A stretch of 64,000 nucleotides of DNA from an uncultured Saprospiraceae bacterium (GTDB lineage: Bacteria; Bacteroidota; Bacteroidia; Chitinophagales; Saprospiraceae): contig CALISO010000020.1 in NCBI GenBank assembly GCA_938041445.1, positions 1 to 64,000 on the forward strand, written 5' to 3'. Below the pieces are notes generated by a model, which saw only the letters and a list, made by a program, of their open reading frames with translations, did no database searches and was not told the origin of the DNA. The position numbers and the translations under genes were made by a program. Below are positions 1 to 62,683 of the stretch, one piece after another (positions within the stretch are counted from its first letter, which is position 1; the number at the start of each line of letters is the position of its first letter).

Positions 1-189
1 ATCTATATGGCAATGTATCCTCGATGTACCAAGGAATACTGTATTGATATCTTTTTCCACTTGCATCTTGTAATACTTATCCAAGATGACTTCATTCCCA
101 TAGACCGCGGGTAGGAGTAGACCTACACTCCAGTTGATTACAAGCAATACACCCAATACAAGTACTATTTTAGTTAGGAATGTTTTCAT
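1..189 (-). CDS. N-terminus of a membrane-anchored SGNH-like protein (cut by window edge)
   Basis: Only the first 63 codons are present; the reading frame is open to base 1. The ATG is at 189. Residues 1-30 form a lysine-led hydrophobic segment typical of a signal anchor. Residues about 50-63 read TVFLGTSRIHCHID, which resembles block I of SGNH/GDSL-type proteins, where a Gly-x-Ser pattern holds the nucleophile. The MBOAT acyltransferase two genes upstream supports an acyl-transfer partner role, as MBOAT proteins are often paired with SGNH proteins (AlgI with AlgJ/AlgX). The family call is inference from a short fragment; the catalytic Asp-x-x-His end cannot be seen. Confidence 0.5.
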   Translation of the reverse strand, partial: MKTFLTKIVLVLGVLLVINWSVGLLLPAVYGNEVILDKYYKMQVEKDINTVFLGTSRIHCHID

Positions 190-194
190 AGGTC

Positions 195-887
195 TTAAGT
201 GGTCAATTCTAAAAGTGCTTTGTAGAGATCAAATCTTGCATTCTCCATAATCCAAAGCTTTTCTTTGTTGTCGAGGATGTTAACTCTCTGTGATTCAATC
301 TTGGCAGCGTCTCTTGTTACTTTTTTGTAGTACTGATTAAATTGTTGACTTGGCTTTAATTGGAGTAGGTTGGTTAATGTTTTGTCTGGTTTATAAAGTA
401 TTTTTTCATAGCAAACTGGCGTGATGTTTTGACCGGCTTTGATTTGTTGAATTGTTAAATCTAAAGAATCGTTCCATTCCTTCACAGCTCGGCGTACGCC
501 TTTTTTCCATGGGTTTGTGGGATGTATTTTTCTAGCCTTGTAGCTTTGAGCAACATCGAAAATATTTCTGAATATAAAGATCACTTTGACACCTTCGAAT
601 CTATCAAAGAGTAATTCGTAATTAATATAGTAGCTTGGAAATTTATCACCTATATATTGTAGTGTAGTTGGTGAGCTTTTGTGCTCTGCTAACTTACCTT
701 GGTATTTTTCGGTAAGAAATAGTTCCTTGTTAAATGTGTCTGACTTTGCGGAAAATTCTGACCTAAATATCTCTGTGCCTACGTAGATATCTTCATGGCT
801 ATTGAGTAGCCTTGTCATCGCTGTAGTGCCTGATCTAGCACATCCAGCGACGAAGAGAGTTTGCTTTGTAATAGTTGAGGTTGTCAA
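195..887 (-). CDS. Sulfotransferase family protein
   Basis: This 230-residue cytoplasmic protein probably moves a sulfo group from PAPS to a sugar or lipid acceptor. The PAPS 5'-phosphosulfate loop is visible as AGCARSGTTAMTRLL near residues 14-28. The 3'-phosphate-binding strand is VIFIFRNIFDVAQSY around residues 101-115. The length is typical of compact bacterial sulfotransferases. The start appears to be TTG at 887, because no ATG precedes the P-loop. It lies 17 bases downstream of the MBOAT gene and 5 bases before the next gene, so co-transcription is likely. The acceptor cannot be told from sequence. Confidence 0.82.
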   Translation of the reverse strand: MTTSTITKQTLFVAGCARSGTTAMTRLLNSHEDIYVGTEIFRSEFSAKSDTFNKELFLTEKYQGKLAEHKSSPTTLQYIGDKFPSYYINYELLFDRFEGVKVIFIFRNIFDVAQSYKARKIHPTNPWKKGVRRAVKEWNDSLDLTIQQIKAGQNITPVCYEKILYKPDKTLTNLLQLKPSQQFNQYYKKVTRDAAKIESQRVNILDNKEKLWIMENARFDLYKALLELTT

Positions 888-904
888 TATTGTTGAGTTG
901 AAGA

Positions 905-2350
905 TTAAAATTGGAAATAAATAAATTCTTGTTCTGATCCCCAGTGATAAAGGATCGTAAAGATCAAGAGTAAGTAGACTGGATATCTAACGAATTGATT
1001 TGTGCTAAGATTGGCAAGACCATGTTGTTCTCTTCTTTTGAACCATTCGATTAATATCAGAAGGAAGATAAATCCAGTCAAAGCAATCAGAGCAAAATCA
1101 TATAAGCCACCCATTTTGTCTCCCCACTGCATTGGATTGACCATATGCCAGAGGTAACTGAGAGCATGGCCAACACTCTCAGCTCTGAAAAAGACCCAAG
1201 CGAGGCATGTCAGTAAGAAGGTAGATCCCATTTGTAGGATTTCTTTGCCGTTTGCCCATTTGCGATCTTCAGCGACTGTGGCTAAGTTGTTTCTGTTTTT
1301 ACCCATCAGGAGTGATGGTAAGAAGTAGAGAGCATTGAGTCCACCCCAGACAACGAAAGTCCAGTTAGCACCATGCCAAAATCCACTTACCAAGAAGATG
1401 GCGAAGACATTTCTGATGGTTTTAGACTTACCTCCTCGCGATCCTCCTATAGGGAAGTAAAGGTAGTCTTTGAACCATGACGAGAGTGAGATGTGCCACC
1501 TTCTCCAAAATTCTGCGATGTCCCTACTGAAGTAAGGATAGGCAAAGTTACGCATCAAGTCAAAGCCAAAAAGTCTTGCCGTACCTATTGCGATATCCGT
1601 ATAACCAGAAAAGTCTCCATAGATTTGGAAAGCAAACAGGACAGCACCTAAAAGTAGGGTTGGTCCATTATAGTTGCCTGGATCAGAGAAGATCATATCT
1701 ACATACGGGGCACAACTATCTGCAATGACAACCTTCTTAAAAAATCCCCAGAGCATTTGGCGGCAGCCATCTACAGCATAGTCATACTTAAATGACTTAG
1801 GTTTTGAGAATTGTGGAAGAAAGTTCTTAGCTCTCTCTATCGGTCCTGCTACTAACTGAGGAAAGAATGCCACATAGGCAAAGAAGGCAAAGAGTTCTTT
1901 CTCTGCCTTGATTTCTCCTCTATACACATCTATTGTATAACTTAATGTTTGGAAGGTATAAAAGCTAATGCCTACAGGAAGCAAAACATTCAATGTGATA
2001 AAGTCTGCCTCCATACCAAATAAGTTGAGCATGTCAGCTGCGCTATCTACGAAGAAGTTAAAGTATTTAAAGAATCCAAGTATTCCGAGGTTAACTAGGA
2101 CTGAGACCCAAAGCAGTTGTTTCTTTCGACTCTGAGAGTCTGCATTATCTATTCCTTGGGAAAGTAAATAATCAAGGATAGAACTGATAATGATCAAGCC
2201 TAAAAATCTCCAATCCCACCAACCATAGAAGAGATAGCTGGCTCCGATCAATAAAAGATTTTGTAGTTTAAGTGATTGTTTGAATGCAAACCAAAACAAG
2301 ATAAAGACTGCGGGAAGGAATAATATGAATTCTATTGAGTTGAACAGCAT
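905..2350 (-). CDS. MBOAT family O-acyltransferase (AlgI-like)
   Basis: A 481-residue polytopic membrane protein of the membrane-bound O-acyltransferase family, which moves acetyl or other acyl groups across the inner membrane onto extracytoplasmic polysaccharide. Many hydrophobic segments run along the whole length. The conserved core is clear: GISFYTFQTLSYTIDVYRG near residues 127-145, the WRRWHISLSSWFKDYLYFP stretch, and SGFWHGANWTFVVWG, which holds the likely catalytic histidine (about residue 326). The length matches AlgI. It probably works with the truncated SGNH-like protein at 1-189. In this locus it most likely acylates the same glycan that the sulfotransferases modify, which is inference from context. 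Confidence 0.9.
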   Translation of the reverse strand: MLFNSIEFILFLPAVFILFWFAFKQSLKLQNLLLIGASYLFYGWWDWRFLGLIIISSILDYLLSQGIDNADSQSRKKQLLWVSVLVNLGILGFFKYFNFFVDSAADMLNLFGMEADFITLNVLLPVGISFYTFQTLSYTIDVYRGEIKAEKELFAFFAYVAFFPQLVAGPIERAKNFLPQFSKPKSFKYDYAVDGCRQMLWGFFKKVVIADSCAPYVDMIFSDPGNYNGPTLLLGAVLFAFQIYGDFSGYTDIAIGTARLFGFDLMRNFAYPYFSRDIAEFWRRWHISLSSWFKDYLYFPIGGSRGGKSKTIRNVFAIFLVSGFWHGANWTFVVWGGLNALYFLPSLLMGKNRNNLATVAEDRKWANGKEILQMGSTFLLTCLAWVFFRAESVGHALSYLWHMVNPMQWGDKMGGLYDFALIALTGFIFLLILIEWFKRREQHGLANLSTNQFVRYPVYLLLIFTILYHWGSEQEFIYFQF

Positions 2351-2353
2351 ATC

Positions 2354-2863
2354 TTAGAATGAATAGTTGTGTTTTCTTATAATAAGTGCTTCTTTTGCAG
2401 CAACAATGTTTCTACTTTTTGCAGTATAGTAGTACTGATAAGGCTTTCTCCTACTGGAGTTGGTTTTCGTCATTTTGTATAGTTGCTGCTTAATCCGTAT
2501 TGCTTTAGTAAATATTGAATGTCTTCATCTAATTTTCATTTCTGAGTACTAAATTTTGGTAATTCTCTTGTTTATCAAATTTGATAAATCATTTGAATCT
2601 CTTTTAATTCTAGATTTAAATCCTCCATCTCCTTGGCAGCCATATGCCCATAGTGATACGTACCAATCCTATGGATTACGGATATTACCTACTTTGAGTA
2701 GAGAGTCAAATTGATATTTAATGTCTTGAGCTAATTGAGTATAGCCATTATATTTGCCATCTTCGATAAATCCATTATTCTTATCAGAAAGCAAAATACT
2801 TCTGACATATGTACAACCAGTTTTTTGAAGTTCGTAGTAAAGAATTGAATTGTTGTTAAGCAT
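2354..2863 (-). pseudogene. Decayed sulfotransferase gene (in-frame stop plus frameshifts)
   Basis: The first 64 codons from ATG 2863 encode a sulfotransferase N-terminus with the PAPS loop ELQKTGCTYVRSIL. A TAG at 2669-2671 interrupts the 3'-phosphate motif: the frame reads NIRNP, stop, DWYVSLWAYGCQGDGG. A tyrosine codon at this place would restore RNPYDWYVSLW. A second stop follows after about 40 codons. A middle piece (LDEDIQYLLKQYGL) lies in another frame, and the family-like C-terminus (KTNSSRRKPYQYYYTAK, ending NYSF before TAA at 2354) is back in the first frame. This pattern fits one nonsense mutation and compensating indels in a former gene of about 170 codons. Confidence 0.8.
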
Positions 2864-2880
2864 GGTAAGCCTTAATTGAT

Positions 2881-3678
2881 TTATCTCTTGATAAGAAACA
2901 TCGTGTTCTCAGTCAAAAGCATTGAAGGGTTAACAATCTTTTTTGCTTTATTTGGTCCGTTTCTATGTGATCCGAAGAAATGCGTTTTATACCCAATGTC
3001 ATTTACAAAATCTACAATCATTTTAGAATTTGCTGAAGTGGCTTTGAGCTGTCTTGGATGGACTTCAAGTAATATTTTTAAATTTTCTGAAGATTTCATG
3101 AGCTCTTCCATACCAAGTAGAGCTTGATATTCAGCTCCTTCAATATCTACTTTAATCAGAGTTGGCTTGATTTTTTTCGCTCTACAAAAATCACTCAATG
3201 AAGTAGTTTCCACTAATTTAAAGTTTGCCTTTTTTGGATTATGACGAATTGAAAGAGTTGTATTGGGTTGATCAAATATTGAAATTTTGAGTTTTTCTCC
3301 TGTTGTGTTTGATACAGCCTTATTGATTACTTCGACATTTTTAAGTGAGTTGTAGTCAATCTGTCTTTGAATAATTGGGATACAATTATCATCAATTTCA
3401 AAGGCAAAGACCTGCTTACATAACATTGCACCTAGAATAGAAAAGTACCCAATATGAGCTCCAAGATCAATAAATATATCCTCAGACTCTAGGATTCGGC
3501 ACATAAACTTAACCATCAATGGCTCATGGATTTTACCAAAATCATATCTAGGTAGAAACCACTTTCTTGAATAACCATCAGTAAGGTCAAATTTGGCAAT
3601 ATTATCAAGGAATTGAACGATAAATTCTGACCTTGTTGAATAGTCAAAATTTTTCAATGTTCTTTTTGTAATCTTCAT
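2881..3678 (-). CDS. FkbM family SAM-dependent methyltransferase
   Basis: A 265-residue cytoplasmic methyltransferase. The SAM-binding motif I is DIFIDLGAHIGYFSILGA near residues 88-105, followed by an acidic ribose-binding strand VFAFEID. The family-typical motif LIKVDIEGAEYQALLGM is near residues 175-191. FkbM proteins O-methylate hydroxyls of sugars or other small acceptors, so here it most likely methylates a hexose of the surface glycan. ATG at 3678. It lies 5 bases upstream of the stop-to-start boundary with the GT32 fusion and 17 bases from the sulfotransferase pseudogene. The acceptor is unknown. Confidence 0.85.
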   Translation of the reverse strand: MKITKRTLKNFDYSTRSEFIVQFLDNIAKFDLTDGYSRKWFLPRYDFGKIHEPLMVKFMCRILESEDIFIDLGAHIGYFSILGAMLCKQVFAFEIDDNCIPIIQRQIDYNSLKNVEVINKAVSNTTGEKLKISIFDQPNTTLSIRHNPKKANFKLVETTSLSDFCRAKKIKPTLIKVDIEGAEYQALLGMEELMKSSENLKILLEVHPRQLKATSANSKMIVDFVNDIGYKTHFFGSHRNGPNKAKKIVNPSMLLTENTMFLIKR

Positions 3679-3683
3679 TCTAT

Positions 3684-5090
3684 TTATTTAAATCTCTTTC
3701 TCACTAGGTGCTTTAGGTTTACTCTAATTGGATAAGGATCCGAAAGAGGTTCAATAGAATTGAGAACTTTCTCTTGACTGATCTCTTTTGCATCACAGAT
3801 CACTTTTAGTTCTTCTATTGCAGCCACGAAGTGTTTGTCTAGGAAGGTTTTCTTCTCCTCGGACATCTGCTTGTAGACTTGCTTATTACTATGGAAGTCA
3901 ACCTCTTTGCCAGTTGTAAGCCCTAGGAATTTATCACACTTCGCTACCCAATCTTGATCAGAGCAGATATTGACAATGAGTAGGTTCCCATTATACTTTT
4001 TAAAATAGTCTATCACATACTGATGATACGAATTTCTTCTTGTAACCCAAGTAGAGATTGCCTTATCACCTAGTGCTCTGTAGTCTTGTCCCATTGGGCC
4101 ATTTACTTGGTTCGGATAAGCTCTGTGAAGCCATTTTATCCTAGATTTTACCCAGCTATCAAGTTCTCTGACATTGAGGATATAGAATGCATCTGGATAG
4201 AGTTCATAGACTCGTTCGATGTTTGCCATTTCTCCATCAGAGTAGGCATCAAACTGGCGTAGAAAGGTCTCCAATCTCTTTGGGCCAAGGTAGTGAGTCG
4301 CCTCTTGCCAAATGAGATTGTGCATCGACTTAAGTTTATGATGTTGAAAGTAAGCATGAAGACTACTAGTCCCAGTCTTATTGAAACCGATACAAAATAC
4401 TTTTGGCTTGGTCTTGGTATGTTGATACTTGAAAATGGATTGACTTTCCTGGGCTGAAGTCCAATGACCATCTCCTTCCTTATAATTGAGATTCCACTTA
4501 AACTCTACGATGTTTCGAATGATTTTGTAGCTTTCAACACGATGGGGCTCGAAGAGTGCTTTTTCTTTTGGAGAGCCATCCTTGTAAAGTGTTGACATAA
4601 TACCAGGCCCAGTGACTTGCCACACGTTATTTGCTACTTTGTTTTCGATGTTGCTGATAACTTTCTCAATTACATATTTAATTAAAGGGCTCTTAGGTTT
4701 TCTGATAAAGATAACATCATTTGCAATCGCTTTTTCACGTGTCATAATCAGTCCGTTTTCTGAGGATTGAATCAACTCGTTCAAGTCATCGAATTTGCCA
4801 TCACCTAGTTTGATATCTGCATCTACATACATTCCTCCGTATTGATATAAAGCACAATATCTGAAGAAATCTGCCTGCATTGCAGGAAGTCGGCATTGAC
4901 AAAATGCATCAAATACTTGTTCGTCAAAGTTTCTTTTGATGAAAGCTTTGGCTTTTGGGTAGCTGTAGAGTTGTAGTCTGTAATTAGGATGATTCCTCCA
5001 ACTTCTCATCATCCGTTCGACTTCTCCTGGTACTTTTTTAGTATTCCAAAATTGGAAAATCTTAATTACATTATTGGTAGGTGATGTCAT
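3684..5090 (-). CDS. GT32-like glycosyltransferase fused to a sulfotransferase
   Basis: From ATG 5090 the protein has 468 residues and two enzymatic halves. Residues about 8-215 resemble the family 32 sugar-binding DXD glycosyltransferases: IFQFWNTKKVPGEVERMMRSW at the start and YQYGGMYVDADIKLG with the DAD metal site near 90-92. From residue about 228 a second domain starts with KVFCIGFNKTGTSSLHAYF, a PAPS loop, and has NVRELDSWVKSRIKWL as probable 3'-phosphate motif. One chain could therefore add a sugar and sulfate the product. A longer frame opens at 5138, but it overlaps the upstream gene by 68 bases and lacks family sequence; 5090 keeps an overlap of 20 bases. Confidence 0.8.
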   Translation of the reverse strand: MTSPTNNVIKIFQFWNTKKVPGEVERMMRSWRNHPNYRLQLYSYPKAKAFIKRNFDEQVFDAFCQCRLPAMQADFFRYCALYQYGGMYVDADIKLGDGKFDDLNELIQSSENGLIMTREKAIANDVIFIRKPKSPLIKYVIEKVISNIENKVANNVWQVTGPGIMSTLYKDGSPKEKALFEPHRVESYKIIRNIVEFKWNLNYKEGDGHWTSAQESQSIFKYQHTKTKPKVFCIGFNKTGTSSLHAYFQHHKLKSMHNLIWQEATHYLGPKRLETFLRQFDAYSDGEMANIERVYELYPDAFYILNVRELDSWVKSRIKWLHRAYPNQVNGPMGQDYRALGDKAISTWVTRRNSYHQYVIDYFKKYNGNLLIVNICSDQDWVAKCDKFLGLTTGKEVDFHSNKQVYKQMSEEKKTFLDKHFVAAIEELKVICDAKEISQEKVLNSIEPLSDPYPIRVNLKHLVRKRFK

Positions 5091-5913
5091 CCTTATAGTG
5101 GTCTCTAATCGATTGAATAACCGTTGGTGAAAGTACAATTTTTGATTCAGTAGTAGGTAGCTCTGGCATGGTACTTAACCATTTTCGCAACTCATTTTTT
5201 TTTTCTTTGTTAAGAGATAAAACTGAGATTTTTCTACATAAGTTAGCTTGAATGTCAGGGATTGCTTTATTTAACGTTGCTACCGCAGGTGTTATCCCAC
5301 AGTCACCGTGCCCAATAGCTTCCCAAAAGTTCTTTACAAAAGAGTTTGTTCCTTCTTTAATAGATTCAAATGGGATCAACGTTAGTTTTTGAGAGTCAAA
5401 GTTCATTGCTAGTTTGTCAAATCTAAAGTTCGCATTTAAACATTGAGCTGTAAACTCTTCTAGTGAATAATGATATCTAAAGTACTTAAGCCCATCGAGG
5501 TAAAGGCTTCTAAAAAGAGTTTCTTGTTGTCTCGTATAAATGACAGTATGAAAGTCGTTTCCAATAACTCTTTTGAGATTGTCCAATCTGTTTCTTAGGT
5601 TTGGGTAAAATAGGGTTGGATTATTTCTCTTTATATGAATACTCGCTGGGTCACCAAGTAAATTTTCATCTGACAATAAAATAGATGAGGCATTTTGTGT
5701 CTTAGCATCTTTTGTTACTTTGTCGTATAATCTTTTAGCAGCTTCGACTTCTAATGTACCTTTTAAGTATTTTCTTAAAGTATTGGTTAATATATAATGT
5801 GTATCTCTTACAATAGGGTAGACCCCAGACTCCTTGGTTTTACTAATCTGTATAGACTTCTGCAAGAGAGTAGAAGCGGTTTTATGTACACCAAGGTGGA
5901 GGTAGGTTTTCAT
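5071..5913 (-). CDS. Sulfotransferase-like protein
   Basis: A 280-residue protein that begins with the PAPS-loop pattern TYLHLGVHKTASTLLQKSIQ (residues 3-22). The 3'-phosphate motif is probably HTVIYTRQQETLFRSLYLDG near residue 122-141; it keeps the arginine and serine spacing but lacks the usual RDP or RNP. The sequence FESIKEGTNSFVKNFWEAIG further on matches the way bacterial sulfotransferases end. ATG at 5913. Its 3' end overlaps the GT32 fusion start by 20 bases, which suggests translational coupling. It is one of the more divergent members of the set, so activity is less certain than for its neighbours. Confidence 0.72.
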   Translation of the reverse strand: MKTYLHLGVHKTASTLLQKSIQISKTKESGVYPIVRDTHYILTNTLRKYLKGTLEVEAAKRLYDKVTKDAKTQNASSILLSDENLLGDPASIHIKRNNPTLFYPNLRNRLDNLKRVIGNDFHTVIYTRQQETLFRSLYLDGLKYFRYHYSLEEFTAQCLNANFRFDKLAMNFDSQKLTLIPFESIKEGTNSFVKNFWEAIGHGDCGITPAVATLNKAIPDIQANLCRKISVLSLNKEKKNELRKWLSTMPELPTTESKIVLSPTVIQSIRDHYKDDITYQ

Positions 5914-5998
5914 AAGTTGTTTAGTCTTTATTTTTTATTGCAATAGCATAGAGTTTATGAATTATCGATTTAAAATTCAGACAATCAGCTCTGTATTA

Positions 5999-6664
5999 TT
6001 AGAAATGTAATCGTGAGTAATTTCCATATTCGAATACCCATCGATACTTTCTATATAGGATTGGTTCCAACTCTTTAGTTACAAAGTTAGTGACGTCTAC
6101 CGGCTTTGTCTTATTCAAGTGGGGAAAGTCAGCATTCCCGTTACCGAATTGTGATCCTAATTCTATAAACCGATCGGTCATCTCTTCGAACTTTATAACC
6201 TCTACCTTTTTTGGAATCTTCCCATCAAGACTGACATACTTCTTAATGTGGATGCCATTGCGATGGTAGAACTTACCCTTGACAAAGGCAGCGAAATCAT
6301 CTTGTAATATGATTTCTTTTCTTTTAGGAGCTCCATCTAAGATTGTAGGATTATTCTCGATGAGTCTTTTGTAGTAATTGAATAACGAGATCTCAAGATT
6401 GTAAGGGTTACGAATAACAGCGATGACTTTTTTAAAATCCTTCAATCCTAAATTGCTGTGCTTCTTTGTAAATGCTAATGCTTCTTCAAGTATAGCATGT
6501 CTCTGACCTATTAGGTTAGTCTCATGACCATACTGAATCTCTTGTGCACCTTTTGGGACTACATTATAGACAGGACCATTAAGTGTAGAACACAAATATT
6601 TTGCTGCTGATGTTCCACCAGTCTTACCAATATGGATAAATAAGATATCGTTGTTAAATACCAC
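5999..6664 (-). CDS. Sulfotransferase family 2-like protein
   Basis: A 221-residue predicted sulfotransferase. The P-loop reads ILFIHIGKTGGTSAAKYL (residues 7-24), and the 3'-phosphate motif is KVIAVIRNPYNLEISLFNYY. This HIGKTGGTS form is typical of the carbohydrate sulfotransferase group related to heparan and chondroitin enzymes. The start codon is GTG at 6664; no ATG lies before the P-loop. It is 9 bases downstream of the 368-residue sulfotransferase, and an 85-base gap separates it from the next gene at 5913. Confidence 0.83.
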   Translation of the reverse strand: MVFNNDILFIHIGKTGGTSAAKYLCSTLNGPVYNVVPKGAQEIQYGHETNLIGQRHAILEEALAFTKKHSNLGLKDFKKVIAVIRNPYNLEISLFNYYKRLIENNPTILDGAPKRKEIILQDDFAAFVKGKFYHRNGIHIKKYVSLDGKIPKKVEVIKFEEMTDRFIELGSQFGNGNADFPHLNKTKPVDVTNFVTKELEPILYRKYRWVFEYGNYSRLHF

Positions 6665-6673
6665 TAGCTACTG

Positions 6674-8549: not shown

Positions 8550-8550
8550 A

Positions 8551-10282: not shown

Positions 10283-10283
10283 G

Positions 10284-15455: not shown

Positions 15456-15508
15456 AGTTGTCGAATTACAATTATTGTGTCAAATAAGTCTTAGCGGGAA
15501 TGTTGTAC

Positions 15509-16000: not shown

Positions 16001-16174
16001 TTCAGGTGTTAGATTAGGGTAATAAAATATACAAATTAGAAACTGACGCAATGTCATTTAAATTCCAATTGAGGGACAAAAATAGGGTAATTGGTGAGAA
16101 TATAAAATCATCGAGGTATCTATAACATAATGATATCAGAACGTTAATCACCGTGTCATTATTAGTAAGACTAC

Positions 16175-16182
16175 TATCTTTG
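16175..16182 (+). promoter_or_regulatory. Candidate -7 element for the tandem GT2 gene
   Basis: TATCTTTG matches the Bacteroidota -7 consensus TAnnTTTG and lies 34 bases before the TTG start at 16217, in the 216-base divergent gap with the lipoprotein gene. No good TTTG is seen at the -33 distance, so support is from the -7 match and position only. The rest of the gap shows nothing clear. Confidence 0.35.
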
Positions 16183-16216
16183 ACCAATATTCAGATAAAA
16201 TAGCCACAATACACAA

Positions 16217-18424
16217 TTGAGTTTTCTAAGACATCTTAATAAGAGAAATTTTCAGACACTTTTCAGAGCATTAAAGTCTGAGCCTTTGCCAGTGATATTC
16301 TCAAATTTTCGTCGATTACTTGGAGGTAAATCAGCAAGTGACCAACTGGAGCAATTTAGTTTTACTCATCCAAGTAAGGAATGGCGACTTAACATTGAGT
16401 TTGCCATTGTATCCAAAATGTCAGCTGCAAATATTGTTTTTGGTTGGATTGTGTATCCTAAGAACCAAGAAGGACATCAATTAACTATTGATAATGATTC
16501 TGTAACCATTTTTTTTGATCGATTAGATGTCTATGAAAGTCATATCAAGAGCAAGGATGCAGATCTAGAAGGCAGAGGTTTTATCTACATTTGCCCCAGA
16601 GGTGAATCTCTTACAGCATCACTCAAGTGGTCAGATATCAATGGTAGTGAACTCGTTTCTAGATCACTTTCCCTTAAGGAATTCAATCATGTAGAAGAGA
16701 TGCCACTCCATCGCAATCTACAGTATAGTCCATATGTTGCAATACAAGATGCAATGCGACAACCTTACACTGAACACTTAACAATACAGCCTAAGATAAG
16801 TGTCTGTGTGCCTGTATATAATGTAGATATTAATTATCTACAGCCATGTGTTGAGTCAGTTATTAACCAATCTTACGACAATTGGGAACTCTGTCTATGT
16901 GATGATGCTAGTACAAGAGCTGATACCAGAGGATATCTCAAATCACTTGAGCAATCTACACACAACATTAAGGTTATCTGGAGTGAAGAAAATGGAAACA
17001 TATCTAAGGCATCCAATCGTGCTGTTGAATCTGCTACTGGGGAATTCATCTGTCTATTAGATCATGATGACTTGCTGCATAGAGATGCACTGCTTGAGGT
17101 CGTCAAAGCAATTAATGTTGACCCGGAGGTTGATATTCTATACTCTGATGAAGACAAATTAGATCAAGATGGATTCAGAGTAGAACCATATTATAAGCCT
17201 CAGTATTCCCCACAGCTCTTATTATCAAATAATTATATCTGTCACATCCTGGTAATCAGGAAGACTCTTGGTGACCAAATTGAGTGGTTCAGAGAAGGGT
17301 ATGAAGGTGCTCAAGATCACGACTTGATCCTGAGACTTGCAGAGCAATCATCTAATATTGTACATATTCCTAAAGTGCTATATCATTGGCGTAAAATCGA
17401 AGGAAGTACTGCACTAGGCCATAGCGAAAAATCTTACGCGAATAAAGCTGGTGTCGCAACGATTAAAAGCTATCTCAAGCGAAATGGAATCAAAGGCAAA
17501 GTAAAAAAAGGTTCCTGGACTGGCGCTTATCGTATCAAGTATGCGGTAGAAGAAAAACCTAAGATTGCTATCGTGATTCCGTTCAAAGACCAAGTAGGTT
17601 ATCTTAAGACTTGTCTATCTAGTGTCTTTCAAAAAACGAGCTATCCTAACTTTGAAGTTATATTAGTTGATAACAATAGTGAAAAGCAAGAAACTGCTGA
17701 TGTTCTTGAAAAATATGCGTTTGTAGATAATGTTCGGATTGTTAAGTACAAGGAGCCATTCAACTATTCTAAGATTAATAATTGGGCAATAAGTCAGACA
17801 GACGCCGAAGTAGTATTGCTACTCAATAACGATATCAAGGTTATTACCAAAGATTGGTTGACAACATTATATAGCTACTTGCAACAAGAAAGTGTAGGCG
17901 CAGTCGGAGCTCAATTGCTTTATGACGATATGACTAGTCAGCACAGTGGGTTGGTGATGGGTATCGGAGGTGTTGCAGGACATGCATTCAAAGGCTTGGA
18001 CTCAAGAGTATATCATTACTATTTAGATGGGTTGCCAAGAAATGTATCTGGATGTACAGCTGCTTGCTTACTCGTCAAGCGAGAAGTGTGGTCACAAGTC
18101 GATGGACTCAATGAAGAGAATCTAAAAGTCGCATTCAATGACGTCGACTTTTGTCTAAAAATCAGGGAAGCTGGACATGATATTCTCTATATTCCTGAAG
18201 TCCAATTGTTCCACTTTGAGTCCAAGTCAAGGGGATACGAGGATACACCAGAGAAGGTGGCAAGATTTAAAACAGAACAAAAATATATGCTTGATACATG
18301 GGGTGATACGATGGCTAATGACCCATTTTATAATCCTAATCTCACATTAATCAAGCAAGACTATGGACTCAACATGGAAGGCGTGATACAACAATATTTA
18401 CAACATAGAGCTCAAGGCAAATGA
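16217..18424 (+). CDS. Tandem family 2 glycosyltransferase
   Basis: A 735-residue protein. Residues 1-185 form a beta-rich region without a family I can name. Residues about 193-410 are a first GT2 domain (ISVCVPVYNVDINYLQPCVE, ELCLCDDAS, FICLLDHDDLLHRDALLEV). Residues about 447-715 are a second GT2 domain (IAIVIPFKDQVGYLKTCLSS, VILVDNNSE, VVLLLNNDIKV, then FNDVDFCLKIREAGHDILY). This arrangement is typical of O-antigen and rhamnan-type polymerising glycosyltransferases. The start appears to be TTG at 16217; the first in-frame ATG falls inside the N-terminal region. The stop overlaps the next start as ATGA. Confidence 0.87.
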   Translation: MSFLRHLNKRNFQTLFRALKSEPLPVIFSNFRRLLGGKSASDQLEQFSFTHPSKEWRLNIEFAIVSKMSAANIVFGWIVYPKNQEGHQLTIDNDSVTIFFDRLDVYESHIKSKDADLEGRGFIYICPRGESLTASLKWSDINGSELVSRSLSLKEFNHVEEMPLHRNLQYSPYVAIQDAMRQPYTEHLTIQPKISVCVPVYNVDINYLQPCVESVINQSYDNWELCLCDDASTRADTRGYLKSLEQSTHNIKVIWSEENGNISKASNRAVESATGEFICLLDHDDLLHRDALLEVVKAINVDPEVDILYSDEDKLDQDGFRVEPYYKPQYSPQLLLSNNYICHILVIRKTLGDQIEWFREGYEGAQDHDLILRLAEQSSNIVHIPKVLYHWRKIEGSTALGHSEKSYANKAGVATIKSYLKRNGIKGKVKKGSWTGAYRIKYAVEEKPKIAIVIPFKDQVGYLKTCLSSVFQKTSYPNFEVILVDNNSEKQETADVLEKYAFVDNVRIVKYKEPFNYSKINNWAISQTDAEVVLLLNNDIKVITKDWLTTLYSYLQQESVGAVGAQLLYDDMTSQHSGLVMGIGGVAGHAFKGLDSRVYHYYLDGLPRNVSGCTAACLLVKREVWSQVDGLNEENLKVAFNDVDFCLKIREAGHDILYIPEVQLFHFESKSRGYEDTPEKVARFKTEQKYMLDTWGDTMANDPFYNPNLTLIKQDYGLNMEGVIQQYLQHRAQGK

Positions 18425-19455
18425 TAGAAGGTGTTTTCGGTAGGATAGAAGGAGGTAGTGTTGTCGGCTGGGCTTATGATACTAAAAGCTCTGAGCCAGT
18501 TTCAATTGTTGTCAAACAAAAAAATAAAGAATTGGCAAGTGGATTGGCTGATGTAGAAAGGCATGACCTTATAGATCAAGCCGTTAATCAAAAAGGTCGA
18601 GTAGGTTATAAAATAAAATTACCTCAAGGTCGGAAGAACTGGAGTAAGATAGAAGTGTTTGCGAATAAGACCAAATTAGATAAGTCGGCGCATTTAACAA
18701 TGGCTATTGAAAAAAGTAGGAGAACACTGAAGCTTGAGATAAATGATCCTTATTTTTTCATCCATATACCAAAAACTGCTGGTACAGCATACAGGTTGCT
18801 ATTAGAATCAGCATTCGAGAAAAGCGACTTTTTCCCTAGTGAAAAAATCATTAAAGAAAGAGGGCTTTATCCATTGTTTCATGATATTATCAAATACGAT
18901 AAACCAACAATAACGCCTAAGATATTAATAGGACATTACCCCTATGCGCTTCATCAGGTAGTCAAAGGAGAAGTAAAGAGAATTGTTATTTTTAGAGATC
19001 CTGTTGCTCGAGTGATTTCTAATATTTACCATATGAAGAACAATGATCCACGATGGAAGGATAAGACTCCAGAAGAAATTTACCAAAAAGGAAAATGGCA
19101 TTACCAGAATCTTCAAGTAAGATATATGGTGGATAAGGTTATTCATCCTAATATGAAATACATCAATAGTATGCCTTTAGGAAAGTTAGACTTGAAGGCT
19201 GCTATTGCTAATATGCGGTCTTGCGATATGGTGGGGGTTTCAGAGAAGTTATCAGAGTCTGTAAATCTCACTAACAAGATGTTTAACTGGAGTTTGGCTG
19301 TACCCAAAAAAGTAAATGTAGCAAAGTCCAAGAAAACCGTATCTGAAAAGCTGATAGCTAAGATCACTAAAGATAATTTGTATGACCAAAAACTTTATGA
19401 ACAAGCAATTGTAAGATTTCAGAGACTTTGCGAGAAGTATGAAATCGTATCTTAG
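18421..19455 (+). CDS. Sulfotransferase with N-terminal beta-type accessory domain
   Basis: A 344-residue protein. Residues 1-95 repeat the accessory module seen at 6674-7780: VFGRIEGGSVVGWAYDTKS, VERHDLIDQ, then GRVGYKIKLPQG. From residue about 110 a family 2 sulfotransferase starts with YFFIHIPKTAGTAYRLLLES, and IVIFRDPVARVISNIYHMK is the 3'-phosphate motif. The ATG overlaps the previous stop (ATGA), so translation is probably coupled to the tandem GT2 gene. This suggests that the two act on the same glycan. Confidence 0.86.
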   Translation: MIEGVFGRIEGGSVVGWAYDTKSSEPVSIVVKQKNKELASGLADVERHDLIDQAVNQKGRVGYKIKLPQGRKNWSKIEVFANKTKLDKSAHLTMAIEKSRRTLKLEINDPYFFIHIPKTAGTAYRLLLESAFEKSDFFPSEKIIKERGLYPLFHDIIKYDKPTITPKILIGHYPYALHQVVKGEVKRIVIFRDPVARVISNIYHMKNNDPRWKDKTPEEIYQKGKWHYQNLQVRYMVDKVIHPNMKYINSMPLGKLDLKAAIANMRSCDMVGVSEKLSESVNLTNKMFNWSLAVPKKVNVAKSKKTVSEKLIAKITKDNLYDQKLYEQAIVRFQRLCEKYEIVS

Positions 19456-19483
19456 ATTTTCACACTGATAGTATAAACGATAT

Positions 19484-20863
19484 ATGAGAACACGTTTTTT
19501 ACTTATTGTTTTTTTGGCTCTATCTTTATTCAATTGCAATACAAGCAATGTATCAACAGATCCCAGACCCAATATATTACTTTTATTTGCCGATGATATG
19601 GGCTATGGTGATCTTGGCAGCACTGGCAGTCCAGATGTGTTGACACCGCATATAGATCAACTAAAGCAGAATGGAATCAACTTTACACAAGCCTATGTGA
19701 GTGCACCGCAATGCAGTCCTAGTAGAGCCGGTCTTATGACTGGGAAGTACCAACAAAGATTTGGGCACGAGGCAAATGCAGAATTGCCATTTGTACAGAC
19801 TTTTGGTTTAGATATTCACCAGCGTACATTCGCTCGGTTTATGAAGAATGAAGGTTATAGAACGTTGGGGTTTGGTAAGTGGGATCTAGGGTCAATACCT
19901 ACAGCAACTCCATGGACAAGAGGTTTTGACCATTTCTTTGGGCATTATGCAGGTGCACGCAGTTTCTATGTGGAACCACAAGAGCCAAGATATCAAGCAC
20001 TTCGAAAGAGTGATACTGATCAAGGAGGTTATCAAGGCTACCTTACTGATCTTATTACCACAGATGCAATCACCCAAATGAATAGACATGATGGCAGGCC
20101 ATGGTTTACATATATGTCCTATCTTAATCCGCATTGGCCAATGGAGGCAAAGCCAGAAGACTTAGAGGCATTTAACCATATACCAGATATTCATCGTAGA
20201 ATCTTCTTGGCATTAATGAAGAATATGGATGATAGTGTAGGGAAATTAGTTGCCCATTTAAAGGAAACAGGTCAATACGAGAACACAGTTATTATCTTTC
20301 TATCAGATAATGGTGGTCCGACGGGAAAGCCAAGAACTAATCCTAATGCAGAAATGGTATACGGCAAGAATACTTCTGTAAATGATCCATTTAGGGGGGT
20401 GAAAGGAGAGGTCTTTGAAGGTGGAATCAGGACACCTATGTATATTCAATGGCCAGCCAGATTTACCAAATCCGAATATACAAAGCCAGTTATCAGCCTA
20501 GATTTATTGCCAACATGTCTAAGTATGGCTGGTGGAGTACCAGATCTTAAATTGGATGGTGTTGACTTGATGCCTTATATAAGTGGTGAATTAAAAACTG
20601 CACCTCACAAGGATCTGTATTGGCGATGGTTTCGCCATTGGGCAATCAGAAGAGGGCAGTGGAAGTTGGTAGTAGTAAATCATACTGATCGTTATCTATT
20701 CAACCTTCACAAGGATAAAAAGGAGACTATCAATGTCATCAATCAATACCCAAAAGTCTATAATAATCTGTTGACCTCATTAGTAGAATGGAATAATGAA
20801 TTGAAGCCAGCTATGTGGCGACACCCTTATCAAGTAGAGTTGTTATCACAACCTCTCAAGTAA
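19484..20863 (+). CDS. Sulfatase (arylsulfatase family), lipoprotein
   Basis: A 459-residue sulfatase. The N-terminus has a lipoprotein signal ending ALSLFNCN, so it is probably anchored in the envelope. NILLLFADDMGYGDLGSTGS supplies the metal-binding aspartates. APQCSPSRAGLMTGKYQQR holds the formylglycine site (Cys about 77) in the canonical C-x-P-S-R form. VIIFLSDNGGPTGKP gives the second metal site. Oxidation by a formylglycine-generating enzyme is needed, but no such gene is in the window. It follows the sulfotransferase gene by 28 bases, so removal or trimming of sulfate from the same polymer, or scavenging of marine sulfated glycans, are both possible. Confidence 0.92.
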   Translation: MRTRFLLIVFLALSLFNCNTSNVSTDPRPNILLLFADDMGYGDLGSTGSPDVLTPHIDQLKQNGINFTQAYVSAPQCSPSRAGLMTGKYQQRFGHEANAELPFVQTFGLDIHQRTFARFMKNEGYRTLGFGKWDLGSIPTATPWTRGFDHFFGHYAGARSFYVEPQEPRYQALRKSDTDQGGYQGYLTDLITTDAITQMNRHDGRPWFTYMSYLNPHWPMEAKPEDLEAFNHIPDIHRRIFLALMKNMDDSVGKLVAHLKETGQYENTVIIFLSDNGGPTGKPRTNPNAEMVYGKNTSVNDPFRGVKGEVFEGGIRTPMYIQWPARFTKSEYTKPVISLDLLPTCLSMAGGVPDLKLDGVDLMPYISGELKTAPHKDLYWRWFRHWAIRRGQWKLVVVNHTDRYLFNLHKDKKETINVINQYPKVYNNLLTSLVEWNNELKPAMWRHPYQVELLSQPLK

Positions 20864-20889
20864 GAACCAAATATGGGTATACTGTTAGG

Positions 20890-21624
20890 TTATGGTTTTA
20901 CCCTCTTTTTAAGAACAGAGAAAAACTCGAAAGTGCCTGGTTGGGTTGGAAACATCTGTTCCACCTCAAGGTCAACCATATCTAGAGCATTAAGAGTATT
21001 AACTATGACGTGGAATGAATGATCAGTAAAGCACCATGCATGTACATCTACATAATTACCTGTTTCATACTCAGCAATCGCTTGCTTTAGACGAGCAATA
21101 TGATTTGGAGTGATATCTCCGTGCCTCCCTGCCCAATGTTCTGATGGAACATTATGTGTTGTGAGAGCACGATGTTCAATTACATTTTTGATTGAATGCT
21201 TCTGCTTCTTTTCATATGAAGCAGCTATAATGTCTGCAATTGAAGATGTATTGTTATAGTGGTCGAAGCAAAATCTCTTATCTGGTACGATCAAATAGTA
21301 CTTTCCACCTTCATTAAGGATGCTGCTAACCTTATTTAGGTGGTCGATGAAATCTAACTGATGCTCGATGACATGACAGCTAAATACAGCATCAAACTTT
21401 TCTTGGATAATGGTTAAGTCAGCAGTTTTAGATACGTAATTTATATATGGAACATTGCTAACGTACTGTTGCTGACCTATTTCTATAGCTCTTTTTTTTA
21501 ATTCTTCTTGGCTAAGTATTTCAAAATATTTGACATTATCACCTCTTAGTTGTGGATTGTAGAATGGGCCTATTTCTAGGACGCTAGCGTTCGGAGGGAT
21601 TGTTTGTGTAAATACTTTTCTCAT
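20890..21624 (-). CDS. Class I SAM-dependent methyltransferase
   Basis: A 244-residue cytoplasmic methyltransferase. Motif I is ASVLEIGPFYNPQLRG (residues 14-29), and the FDAVFSCHVIEHQLDFIDHL segment is a post-motif typical of the Methyltransf_11/23 group. The KYYLIVPDKRFCFDHY stretch follows. It converges with the sulfatase and lies 55 bases downstream of the ABC exporter ATPase, on the same strand, so it may belong to the export operon. Methylation of a terminal sugar is a common chain-length signal in ABC-exported O-antigens; that role is inference. Confidence 0.82.
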   Translation of the reverse strand: MRKVFTQTIPPNASVLEIGPFYNPQLRGDNVKYFEILSQEELKKRAIEIGQQQYVSNVPYINYVSKTADLTIIQEKFDAVFSCHVIEHQLDFIDHLNKVSSILNEGGKYYLIVPDKRFCFDHYNNTSSIADIIAASYEKKQKHSIKNVIEHRALTTHNVPSEHWAGRHGDITPNHIARLKQAIAEYETGNYVDVHAWCFTDHSFHVIVNTLNALDMVDLEVEQMFPTQPGTFEFFSVLKKRVKP

Positions 21625-21679
21625 CTATAACAAACTTAAGAACTAATGACTTGTAAATGAATTCTATACAAGGGCTATT

Positions 21680-22444
21680 CTAAATTTTTGGTGCTGCATG
21701 CTTGGTAAATAGGGAAGCATACAATGGTATCATTTCATCAGGATGACCAAGTCCGACTTGCTTTCCCTGGTCTATCACTAACACTCGTTGACAATGCTTC
21801 TTTATAGTTTCTAATTGATGGGTAACGTGAACTATTGTTCTTCCATCTAAGAAAGTGTCATTGAATACCTTTGTACTTTTTTTACGAAAGTTAATATCTC
21901 CAACGCCTCCAAAAAACTCATCCATTAAAAAAATATCCGCCTTTGCATGGATTGCAACTGAGAACTTAAGTTTAGCTTGCATTCCCGATGAATATTGCTT
22001 AACCGGTACATCTACAAAGCGTTCTAGCTCTGCAAATTCGACGATGTTATCAAAAATATCACCGATTTCTCTAAATGTTAATCCTAGTATAGAACCATTG
22101 ATATAAATATTGTCTCTGGCACTCAAGTTTGGGTCAAAGCCCATCCCTAATGCTAGTCGTATGATCTTCCCTTCAGTATTGACGATACTACCTTTATCAG
22201 GACGCAAGGATCCCATTATGCAATTTAGCAGTGTAGATTTACCACATCCGTTTTTACCAATAATCCCAAAGAATTCACCTTTATTAACCGTAAAATTAAT
22301 ATTGTCTAAAGCCTTGATCTCTTTGACCTTATGCTTTGTCGAGAACGGTCTCAAAAGTTTTTCTCTAAGTTGACGACTCTCTTTGTTGATCATCGCGAAC
22401 GTCTTACTCAGGTTTTTTACTTCTATAGCTACTTCATTACTCAT
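21680..22444 (-). CDS. ABC transporter ATPase for polysaccharide export (Wzt/KpsT type)
   Basis: A 254-residue ATPase. Walker A is GKNGCGKST (residues 63-71); the signature is QYSSGMQAKLKFSVAIHAKA, and Walker B is DIFLMDEFFGGVGD. The H-loop reads IVHVTHQLE. These features match the Wzt, KpsT and TagH group, which exports lipid-linked polysaccharide. The chain ends soon after the nucleotide-binding domain, so the C-terminal carbohydrate-binding domain of O9a-type Wzt is absent. That fits a KpsT-type or capless system. It follows the permease with no gap, since the permease stop at 22445 touches this ATG in reverse order. Confidence 0.9.
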   Translation of the reverse strand: MSNEVAIEVKNLSKTFAMINKESRQLREKLLRPFSTKHKVKEIKALDNINFTVNKGEFFGIIGKNGCGKSTLLNCIMGSLRPDKGSIVNTEGKIIRLALGMGFDPNLSARDNIYINGSILGLTFREIGDIFDNIVEFAELERFVDVPVKQYSSGMQAKLKFSVAIHAKADIFLMDEFFGGVGDINFRKKSTKVFNDTFLDGRTIVHVTHQLETIKKHCQRVLVIDQGKQVGLGHPDEMIPLYASLFTKHAAPKI

Positions 22445-23242
22445 TTATAACATTTCAATTGCCTTGTGAGAAAACTTTTTGTAAGAAATAATTCCAACAA
22501 TTAGAACTACAATACCAGTAGCATAGTTGATCCCCATTAATGACCAATCGGGTCCAATTCCATCAAATGAGATAGCTCGCATATTCATAACGATTCCAAC
22601 AAAAGGATTTATTACTCGCAATGGTGGAAACGCCTCCAAAAACAACTCACCTCTTCTAAAAATCCCTGAAGACCAGAATCCAGCAAGAGTGATTATCGCC
22701 CATAAATGCTTTATATCTTTAAAATAAATTTGAATAACTGTCAAAATCATCGCCGACCCAATACAAAGAATAAAGACATTGATAAGTATCAGCGGCATGT
22801 AGAGTAGATTAAAAGTAAATGGGATTCCAACTGCAGCCACGAATACTAGGTAAGCTGCTAAATTGAAAGCAAATCCAATAAAAACACTAATCGTCAGGGA
22901 TATGTATAGATCAATATGGTTGAACTTGATATTTTCAATTAGGTACCTTTTCGTATTAATAAGACTCAATCCTTTAGTACTTGCTTCAGTCCAAGCCATC
23001 CACAATATTAGTCCTGCAAAAAGAAAAATAGCATAGTGCTCAATATTAATTTGAAACACAAAGGTGAATACCATATAGTAGATCGCTATCTTAAATAAAG
23101 GATTAAGTAATGCCCAAAACAACCCCAATTTATCATTGTAGTATCGTTTTTTGAAATCTACTTGGGCAAGTTTCCAGATTCTTTCTACACGATTGTTCTC
23201 TGGTATTCTCTCTAATATAGGTCTGAGGAGAGTGTTTATCAT
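22445..23242 (-). CDS. ABC-2 type polysaccharide export permease (Wzm type)
   Basis: From ATG 23242 the protein has 265 residues and about six hydrophobic segments. The N-terminal amphipathic part is followed by WKLAQVDFKKRYYNDKLGLFW, the typical ABC-2 start of Wzm/KpsM/TagG permeases. A slightly longer frame begins with TTG at 23254, but ATG 23242 (MINTLLRPILERIPENN) is preferred. The gene is directly followed by the ATPase at 22444. The pair would flip a lipid-linked glycan across the inner membrane, matching the biosynthetic genes upstream. An inverted repeat lies just before the start. Confidence 0.9.
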   Translation of the reverse strand: MINTLLRPILERIPENNRVERIWKLAQVDFKKRYYNDKLGLFWALLNPLFKIAIYYMVFTFVFQINIEHYAIFLFAGLILWMAWTEASTKGLSLINTKRYLIENIKFNHIDLYISLTISVFIGFAFNLAAYLVFVAAVGIPFTFNLLYMPLILINVFILCIGSAMILTVIQIYFKDIKHLWAIITLAGFWSSGIFRRGELFLEAFPPLRVINPFVGIVMNMRAISFDGIGPDWSLMGINYATGIVVLIVGIISYKKFSHKAIEML

Positions 23243-23252
23243 AGTATTCTGC

Positions 23253-23277
23253 AAGCTGTTTTAAGGATTAACAGCTT
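23253..23277. repeat. Inverted repeat upstream of the export operon
   Basis: AAGCTGTT at 23253-23260 and AACAGCTT at 23270-23277 form a perfect 8-base stem with a 9-base spacer, about 11 bases before the permease ATG at 23242. It may be an operator or a leader hairpin. Palindrome length alone is modest evidence. Confidence 0.35.
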
Positions 23278-62643: not shown

Positions 62644-62683
62644 AATCTAGTTGAATCGGATCGATAATTAGGATTTTAGAACA

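Follow-up and report, generated by a model that had tools for sequence, protein, structure and literature searches.

What would a bacterium build with nine sulfotransferases encoded almost side by side? Animals, algae and cyanobacteria provide most of the known cases of heavily sulfated coats, and the genome that raises this question is that of an uncultured Saprospiraceae bacterium, whose locus stands at the start of a contig and is incomplete, the window (the whole stretch of DNA analysed, 64,000 nucleotides) beginning at the contig end that cuts it at base 1. The original prediction, of nine intact sulfotransferases (STs) and one decayed copy within 20 kb, holds: open reading frames, translations and Pfam matches place nine intact ST-type domains and one broken copy in 19.3 kb (195–19455), interspersed with glycosyltransferases (GTs), MBOAT, FkbM, a sulfatase and a Wzm/Wzt pair, and all of the genes that it named are present (Table 1). 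Its wider claim of an ST-dense surface-glycan locus with its own exporter is also supported, whereas its suggestion of a polymer that rivals algal glycans in complexity is speculative. We consider it likely, at a probability of roughly 0.7, that this Saprospiraceae locus directs the synthesis of a multiply sulfated, ABC-exported surface polysaccharide.

Table 1. Features at the start of the window, with the evidence for each; percentages are identities to homologues in the genomes named.
Feature	Position	Strand	Evidence
Start of a further protein, truncated by contig end	1–194		Tail read in translation
ST195, sulfotransferase (Sulfotransfer_3)	195–887	-	PF13469 59.7 bits, cut-off 27; GCARSGT / RNIFDVAQS
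MBOAT O-acyltransferase	905–2350	-	PF03062 104.9 bits; 72% to G277 MBOAT, same place
Decayed ST copy (weak), stops and frame breaks	2351–2880	-	ELQKTGCTYVRSIL and IRNP-stop-DWYVS
FkbM methyltransferase	2881–3678	-	PF05050 43.2 bits
ST3684, DXD glycosyltransferase fused to ST (Sulfotransfer_4, C-terminal half)	3684–5138	-	PF04488 39.1, PF17784 47.4 bits
ST5071, putative sulfotransferase	5071–5913	-	No Pfam; GVHKTAS / RQQETLFRS; 46–47% homologue in G277, same place
ST5999, sulfotransferase (Sulfotransfer_2-like)	5999–6664	-	PF03567 18.3 bits, cut-off 22; motifs; 67% G277, 63% G231
ST6674, sulfotransferase with N-terminal GWAFD module	6674–7780	-	PF00685 21.7 bits, cut-off 22; motifs; 45% G277
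ST7773, sulfotransferase akin to heparan sulfate 2-O/6-O-sulfotransferases	7773–8549	-	PF03567 28.6 bits
GT2 glycosyltransferase	8551–9546	-	PF00535 104.3 bits; 80% G003, 52% G277, 44% G231
ST9536, sulfotransferase, GERNSGTN type	9536–10297	-	No Pfam match; predicted structure, motifs
1723-aa fusion: N-terminal ST (~260 aa), coiled coil, GT4, GT2, methyltransferase	10284–15455	-	Pfam; 68% G003
Superbasic lipoprotein with lipobox and Lys-rich tail, net charge of mature part +42	15509–16057	-	
Protein with two GT2 domains	16217–18424	+	PF00535 159.1 bits, 2 stretches
ST18421, sulfotransferase with N-terminal GWAYD module	18421–19455	+	Weak PF00685/PF03567; 52% G003
Sulfatase with CSPSR active-site motif and, by eye, a lipoprotein-type signal	19484–20863	+	PF00884 193.8 bits
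SAM methyltransferase (MT20890)	20890–21624	-	PF08241 27.6 bits
Wzt ATPase, 254 aa	21680–22444	-	PF00005 79.9 bits; 72% G003, 60% G277
Wzm permease	22445–23254	-	PF01061 27.3 bits, cut-off 26.9; 63% G003, 54% G277

Domains, motifs and models of the sulfotransferases

Pfam recognises part of the set: ST195, ST3684 and ST7773 pass a cut-off, ST6674, ST5999 and ST18421 match below it, and ST5071, ST9536 and the N-terminus of the 10284 ORF have no Pfam ST match at E ≤ 0.1; NCBIfam has no ST family above cut-off for any of the nine. A Pfam search, proposed as a check on all nine domains, thus succeeds for three and leaves six below cut-off or without a match, which weakens the polysaccharide reading. 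The decayed copy is weakly identified by similarity: its best tblastn match is an ST (E 0.002), the next is a non-ST ORF (0.003), and phmmer gives no match at E ≤ 1e-3.

Both PAPS motifs are found in every one of the nine: a 5′-phosphosulfate loop near the domain start and, after a hydrophobic (strand-like) stretch, a 3′-phosphate motif R/K-x7-S, with K replacing R in ST9536; the 3′-motif of the 10284 ORF weakly resembles that of SULT1A3 (E 0.041). The two-motif pattern, which was composed after reading the nine STs, is passed by 9/9 of them, by 15 of 4500 shuffles and by 2 of 600 non-ST ORFs of 180–500 aa, and with 61 of 112 other ST-HMM ORFs passing it is specific, not sensitive. The nine are mutually very divergent (best blastp pair E 0.002), which would be compatible with different sulfation positions. 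The family profile of ST7773 matches 5t03 (E 1.4e-8) and 3f5f (E 6.4e-7), a kinship in sequence, at low identity and in a bacterium, to the heparan sulfate (HS) 2-O/6-O STs, and ST18421 groups with ST7773 in the iterated HMM (E 6e-65). The GWAFD/GWAYD module is N-terminal in ST6674 and ST18421, and by a profile whose seed included five of its members the superbasic lipoprotein of some loci has GWAFD too.

For ST9536, the family profile search returned unrelated chains only, and the structure search succeeded instead. Its model is middling (pLDDT 65), and the best 50 Foldseek matches are all STs, one of them at E ≤ 0.001 (top E 3.0e-4; TM-scores 0.30–0.52); in VIA the highest Z is 10.6, to Teg12 and over 186 residues, again with STs in all 50 of the matches listed. 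The model, likened to HS 3-O-ST3 (at low identity), StaL and Teg12, places ST9536 in the sulfotransferase fold of the PAPS-dependent superfamily, as far as a middling model can. The best matches of the ST5071 model (pLDDT 50) are mostly P-loop kinases, with one ST at rank 27 and none at E ≤ 0.001, and phmmer finds no match for it among PDB sequences; ST5071 is a putative ST by its motifs. A lack of PAPS-binding residues, named beforehand as what would overturn the prediction, is thus contradicted by the motifs of all nine and by the predicted structure of ST9536, which with ST5071 is one of the two most divergent members; the structure of ST5071 lends no such help. Domains, motifs, the ST9536 model and the kinship of ST7773 support the polysaccharide reading, which the middling quality of that model and the missing fold support for ST5071 weaken. 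The ST9536 profile matches 11 of 398 Saprospiraceae genomes, the source genome among them and some of the matches weak, and, weakly or partially, 5 of 394 other genomes in a class-level sample; ST5071 has matches in 3 of 298 genomes, again counting the source genome and with one weak match.

Gene order and constraint in relatives

From the 1723-aa gene through FkbM the genes form a tight minus-strand run with intergenic gaps of −68 to +85 bp. In G277, a Saprospiraceae genome of another genus (g141), the order ST9536–GT–ST7773–ST6674–ST5999–ST5071–GT/ST3684–MBOAT recurs at 43–72% identity, with Wzm, Wzt and a basic lipoprotein upstream; the homologue of the 3684 GT–ST fusion (63% / 50%) is spread over two contig ends. 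G003, of the same genus as the source genome (g1), retains the exporter half, and G231 retains five of the genes with one swap. Judged from these sequences, g1 and g141 share the gene order of the array, and because gene order is conserved we reject a chance pile-up of STs; since another genus has much of the locus in the same arrangement, the product is probably a heavily sulfated coat.

The conservation has gaps that weaken the polysaccharide reading: in the stretches fetched from G277 and G003 nothing corresponds to the sulfatase, FkbM, ST195 or MT20890 (G003 ends before FkbM and ST195), and neither the 1723-aa N-terminus nor ST9536 was found in two of three same-genus relatives. Replacement differences are fewer than synonymous ones in 10/10 homologue pairs, with pN/pS of 0.103/0.76 for ST9536, 0.303/0.80 for ST18421, 0.22/0.82 for ST5999 against G277 and, least constrained, 0.363/0.74 for the lipoprotein pair; dS is saturated, which precludes dN/dS and allows only a crude demonstration of selection, a point against the reading. 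If P-loop domains that are decaying or catalytically inactive had simply accumulated here, with no function in common, the decayed copy and the missing fold support of ST5071 would be accounted for; this is very improbable in the face of nine intact motif pairs, pN below pS and colinear homologues.

Sulfated polysaccharide loci elsewhere had been said to have far fewer STs. This is right for the published loci compared here (two, two and three STs, the last with one of its three inside the cluster). Within the taxonomic order, arrays of similar size exist: G094:C15 has 7 in 13 kb and G277:C73 has 7 plus one split by the contig end. By iterated HMMs the densest 20 kb holds 9 STs in the window and 7, 7, 6, 6 and 6 in the next of 51 other ST contigs, which were mostly fetched for ST-type matches (two for APS kinase) and are in some cases shorter than 20 kb, the HMMs having been iterated on the same 980 ORFs and grown broad (108, 103 and 45 matches for three). 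Matches to PF13469 as such are common in the order: they occur in 76 of 100 genomes, which makes the potential no rarity. Further single STs lie on other contigs of the source genome. These single STs, and the divergence of the nine and their presence on both strands, would suit a general surface-sulfation island whose STs modify several small targets (LPS core, sulfolipids, protein-linked glycans). Against this stand the tight overlapping run, the GT–ST fusions and the same order behind the same Wzm/Wzt in another genus, and we regard such an island as unlikely.

How fixed the array is within a species or genus is a separate matter. G150 and G228 (g141) share Wzm–Wzt–basic lipoprotein–GT–ST with G277 and differ in the distal gene set, which in G150 includes two other STs above Pfam cut-offs, and in g1 the locus is shown by two of four genomes (G000 and G003); a Wzm scan of genome contigs gave one locus only, L024 (by its ORFs the G003:C29 contig). 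The locus may accordingly be a variable capsule locus, in which the exporter, the basic lipoprotein and the first genes stay the same, the GT/ST cassette is swapped among strains and nine STs represent one serotype rather than a fixed set. That g1 and g141 have this array type in the same arrangement speaks against it, and we give it an even chance. It is compatible with the polysaccharide reading and concerns evolution more than biochemistry.

Exporter genes, a candidate anchor and PAPS supply

The conserved gene order, a superbasic lipoprotein and the question of PAPS supply are observations beyond the original prediction. The adjacent Wzm permease and Wzt ATPase beside GTs (PF00535, PF13692, PF04488) are the hallmark of an ABC-transporter-dependent polysaccharide locus, as in Wzm/Wzt and KpsM/T capsule and O-antigen loci; to our knowledge, the classical loci of this kind lack ST sets, GT–ST fusions and a superbasic lipoprotein. 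Wzt has no C-terminal carbohydrate-binding domain in Pfam at E ≤ 0.1, a domain that marks the Wzt of capped O-antigens, and neither a flippase nor a Wzy polymerase is among the 20 ORFs scanned (195–26310), on a contig cut at base 1. PF00884 together with C-x-P-S-R (CSPSR) makes the sulfatase an S1 formylglycine sulfatase.

Homologues of the superbasic lipoprotein lie ≤12 kb from Wzm/Wzt in G003, G277, G150, G228 and G280. By a rule set post hoc, after the pattern was seen (net +20 and a lipobox), such lipoproteins occur on 8 of 14 Wzm contigs, which are related and include the window, against 1 of 41 others; six of the 14 have none, and the sole match without Wzm is antisense to an APS kinase. 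With a charge of about +42, the protein is a candidate electrostatic anchor for a polyanion, which is a new observation. The RNA fold of 16040–16240 is ordinary (z −0.13).

Neither APS kinase nor CysD was found in the source assembly, which weakens the polysaccharide reading and would fit enzymes that are idle or use another donor. An APS kinase (assigned by Pfam) is present in 3/3 same-genus genomes, near GlyRS and flippase-like genes (these names, like MscL, CysD and CysN, were assigned by eye). In the source genome (G000), contig C74 breaks off within the shared genes that follow GlyRS, 785 bp past it, and C106 begins within a flippase-like gene; on these sequences the PAPS genes of the source genome would fall into the assembly gap between two contig ends. 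Because the expected place of the APS kinase is in this gap, we reject a missing PAPS supply, which is scarcely credible. The gap, the tight run, the colinearity with G277, pN < pS in all ten pairs and the distribution of the lipoprotein argue for the polysaccharide reading; the cut at base 1 counts against it.

A proposed pathway and its relation to known systems

The chain would be assembled in the cytoplasm by the GT2, GT4 and DXD glycosyltransferases, some of them fused to STs or methyltransferases, and in the same compartment would receive sulfate from PAPS through as many as nine non-redundant STs, each probably tied to one residue or position. It would also be methylated, and the finished chain, presumably a single product, would be exported via Wzm/Wzt, O-acylated by MBOAT, trimmed by the secreted sulfatase and retained at the surface in part via the lipoprotein. 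Animal HS sulfotransferases act in the Golgi on one backbone. More tentatively, and somewhat short of an even bet, some Saprospiraceae may run an HS-like assembly line, in which some seven to nine non-redundant STs, conserved as a set and in their order, write a fixed sulfation pattern on an ABC-exported chain. The exporter half would stay constant while ST/GT cassettes are swapped in the manner of serotypes, and the dedicated ~+42 lipoprotein (with GWAFD in some loci) would bind the polyanion at the surface.

A search of the openly licensed literature on Saprospiraceae and Bacteroidota STs, sulfated EPS and lysine-rich lipoproteins gave no earlier description of this locus type. The closest relative in kind is synechan (xss) of Synechocystis 6803, likewise a dedicated GT and ST cluster, whose exported sulfated polysaccharide is, according to the available text, chemically proven (PMC8205485); the present locus, known from its genes, differs in having nine STs instead of two, Wzm/Wzt instead of Wzx/Wzy, and a host in Bacteroidota. 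The same text describes most cyanobacterial STs as lying in putative EPS clusters of both Wzx/Wzy and ABC type (PMC8205485), and the pairing of an ST cluster with an ABC exporter thus has precedents. Outside cyanobacteria, wps-1 of Actinoplanes missouriensis similarly combines STs of different families, one of HS type, with a methyltransferase; it has two predicted STs, Wzx/Wzy and an actinomycete host, and the sulfation of its polymer is predicted (PMC13390465, available part). Pontiella sulfatireligans has three putative GAG-ST genes, one within a GT2/GT4-rich cluster, and a sulfated exopolymer was detected; the accessible portion describes no comparable ST array (PMC7356697).

As far as the available text of each goes, two papers of 2021 and 2026 still name cyanobacteria as the sole bacterial makers of sulfated polysaccharides (PMC8205485, PMC13390465), against which stand the sulfated GAG-like exopolymers of Pontiella reported in 2020 (PMC7356697). 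A mat metagenome study, in the part available, used PF13469 as its ST query, recorded no ST in any Bacteroidetes MAG and treated the phylum as degraders (PMC9723792). Here a Bacteroidota family has a nine-ST locus in which a single ST passes the PF13469 cut-off. In granular sludge, where sulfated GAG-like polymers occur, the accessible text calls the bacterial pathways not well known and reports few matches with two reference STs (PMC10483923); the locus supplies gene probes for that question and, if active, would also provide STs that differ in specificity.

The sulfotransferase array and its order in relatives

The original prediction, nine intact sulfotransferase domains and one decayed copy in a glycan locus with its own exporter, is borne out by the ORFs, Pfam matches and translations: the nine intact sulfotransferase-type domains and the broken copy are accompanied, up to position 23254, by MBOAT, FkbM, several glycosyltransferases (GTs), a sulfatase and the Wzm/Wzt pair, beyond which lies lepA. 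Indeed, the observation is stronger than predicted, because a second genus keeps most of the array in the same order. The window covers the initial 64 kb of the 95-kb contig C20 in a 3.35-Mb genome (G000, 96% complete); the same HMMs found no additional sulfotransferase (ST) between 19455 and 84000 of this contig, and at least five other ST places occur elsewhere in the genome, each on separate contigs. In the minus-strand run from the 1723-aa gene to FkbM, every neighbouring pair overlaps or is at most 85 bp apart.

Features of the locus and window; ST numbers are window start coordinates
Feature	Position	Description
ST array	195-19455	nine intact ST-type domains, one broken copy
GWAFD/GWAYD module, ST6674 N-terminus	~7505-7774, minus strand	absent from Pfam matches
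GWAFD/GWAYD module, ST18421 N-terminus	18427-18681	absent from Pfam matches
GWAFD/GWAYD module, loci L057, L060, L055		absent from Pfam matches
ST9536	9536-10297, minus strand	
1723-aa protein	10284-15455	fusion: ST, coiled coil, GT4, GT2, methyltransferase
Basic lipoprotein	15509-16057	small; lipobox; mature part net charge +42; Lys-rich tail
Wzm/Wzt	21680-23254	ABC exporter pair
lepA	23387	
tRNA-like gene	62683-62764	odd two-base anticodon (ARAGORN); probably spurious

In G277, from another genus, the order is Wzm, Wzt, basic lipoprotein, GT, ST and a large GT protein, followed, as in the window, by ST9536 (61% identity), GT (52%), ST7773 (43%), ST6674 (45%), ST5999 (67%), ST5071 (46%), GT-ST3684 (63/50%) and MBOAT (72%). 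The differences are one extra opposite-strand gene between ST5999 and ST5071 and the absence of the N-terminal ST from the large GT protein; the step from contig C73 to C75 is inferred because each carries one part of the GT-ST gene at its end. G231, from a third genus, keeps ST9536, ST7773, GT8551, ST5999 and MBOAT, but GT8551 and ST7773 have changed places; the position of ST6674 is taken by a 468-aa protein matched by no ST profile, and that of ST5071 by a different ST. The same-genus G003, whose contig ends within GT8551, keeps everything from there to Wzm except the sulfatase and the methyltransferase MT20890. Replacement differences were lower than synonymous differences in all ten pairs compared, by the smallest margin for the lipoprotein. 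Among the Saprospiraceae genomes sampled, 11 of 398 have the ST9536 family; in the class sample, 5 of 394 other genomes gave weak or partial matches.

Counted with iterated HMMs throughout, the best 20 kb of the window holds nine STs, the highest count here, yet not an isolated one, because others among the 51 further ST-bearing contigs fetched reach seven (G277:C73, G094:C15) and six (G231, G082, G037). The G094 and G082 arrays belong to another family of the order and to another ST type; their loci (L014, G094:C15:23337-36428, seven STs; L015, G082:C23, six) include several STs of GAxKSGTT type.

Sulfotransferase identity of the nine domains

By Pfam, three of the nine score above cut-offs, three below, and three have no ST match; between themselves the nine are only remotely similar, with E 0.002 for the closest pair. 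Both PAPS-binding motifs occur in all nine, versus 15 among 4500 shuffles and 2 among 600 non-ST ORFs, with a pattern that was composed with the nine in view and picks up 61 of 112 other ST-HMM ORFs. Against solved structures, the ST7773 family profile matches heparan sulfate 6-O- and 2-O-sulfotransferases (E 1.4e-8 and 6.4e-7). ST9536 has no Pfam family match; for its predicted model (pLDDT 65), the best 50 matches listed are all sulfotransferases both in Foldseek (TM-scores 0.30-0.52; best E 3.0e-4, the sole one of these 50 at E<=0.001) and in VIA (Z 10.6 to 9.0).

At its N-terminus the 1723-aa protein gives a weak alignment with SULT1A3 across the 3' motif (E 0.041); this region forms one ST family with its relatives in iterated HMMs, and residues 1-750 have relatives in 47 of 398 Saprospiraceae genomes (E<=1e-3). 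Proteins of more than 900 aa with such an N-terminus recur in Saprospiraceae, several beside Wzm/Wzt; the G231 version, like that of G277, is without the ST part. The weakest assignment of the nine is ST5071, a putative sulfotransferase with both PAPS motifs and a 46-47% identical homologue at the equivalent place in G277; its model is poor, with kinase-like structure matches.

The superbasic lipoprotein and variable cassettes

Homologues of the basic lipoprotein carry net charges of +42 (G003), +40 (G277), +41 (G150), +40 (G228) and +27 (G280). A profile seeded by three of its six best genomes matches in 59 of 298 Saprospiraceae genomes, and those six (G003, G000, G277, G228, G150, G280) all have the match within 12 kb of Wzm/Wzt; around a weaker match, in G210, no Wzm/Wzt match was found within the 20 kb fetched. 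Under a broader definition, a superbasic lipoprotein occurs in 8 of 14 Wzm-bearing contigs and in 1 of the 41 that lack Wzm (Fisher p 2e-5); this count used a threshold chosen post hoc and includes related contigs and the window itself. The protein is thus a candidate electrostatic anchor for a polyanionic chain. In G149 and G205 its C-terminal end is the GWAFD module that also starts ST6674 and ST18421. This module, found in 15 of 980 ORFs, sits in these loci on STs, on two superbasic lipoproteins and on a large ST-GT fusion, and is possibly a polymer-binding domain.

G150 and G228, from the genus of G277, share with it Wzm, Wzt, basic lipoprotein, GT and ST, followed by a different distal set, so that the same exporter half carries a swapped GT/ST cassette (L135 and L136 on G228:C59 and G150:C21, versus L069/L070/L099 in G277). 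A Pfam scan of the G150 set alone gave a GT4 protein, two methyltransferases, STs that pass the PF13469 and PF03567 cut-offs, and a weakly DltD-like protein (21.9 bits, cut-off 22.7). These differences look like the cassette exchange of capsule serotypes.

Published systems and PAPS supply

In published accounts, the synechan cluster has two STs with Wzx/Wzy, other cyanobacterial STs sit in Wzx/Wzy- and ABC-type clusters, and sulfated polysaccharides are stated to be exclusive, among bacteria, to cyanobacteria (PMC8205485; the last repeated in PMC13390465). Actinoplanes wps-1 has two predicted STs (PMC13390465) and Pontiella three putative GAG-ST genes, one inside a cluster, GAG-active prokaryotic STs being stated as not known (PMC7356697); an ST gene was lacking in all Bacteroidetes MAGs of one study (PMC9723792), and bacterial pathways to sulfated GAG are called not well known (PMC10483923). 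No description of this locus type appeared among the results listed by searches of openly licensed literature. An ABC exporter beside STs, as here, was already noted in cyanobacteria; new are the ST number and conservation, the phylum and the basic lipoprotein. Gene content suggests that the locus would make a sulfated polymer.

Neither APS kinase nor CysD was found in the G000 assembly. APS kinase (Pfam) is present in 3 of 3 same-genus genomes, in a block running from GlyRS to cysC-cysD-cysN, which in G001 and G002 continues past cysN via flippase-like genes to an ST (gene names assigned by eye, APS kinase excepted). In G000, contig C74 ends 785 bp beyond GlyRS; this tail contains MscL and the first part of a gene that precedes cysC in G003. 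C106 begins inside a flippase-like gene 39-41% identical to its far-side counterpart in G001/G002, and two neighbours are 52-65% identical to theirs. The gap is thus flanked by matching genes at either end; cysCDN of G000 would probably lie within it. The flippase-like genes and ST (L001, G001:C55; L002, G002:C41; L006, G000:C106) form a possible second sulfation locus. The ST 3' of cysCDN in same-genus genomes is of QKCASTY/HKCASTY type, and at L020 (G027:C28:6819-8456) a Sulfotransfer_3 gene lies directly 3' of APS kinase.
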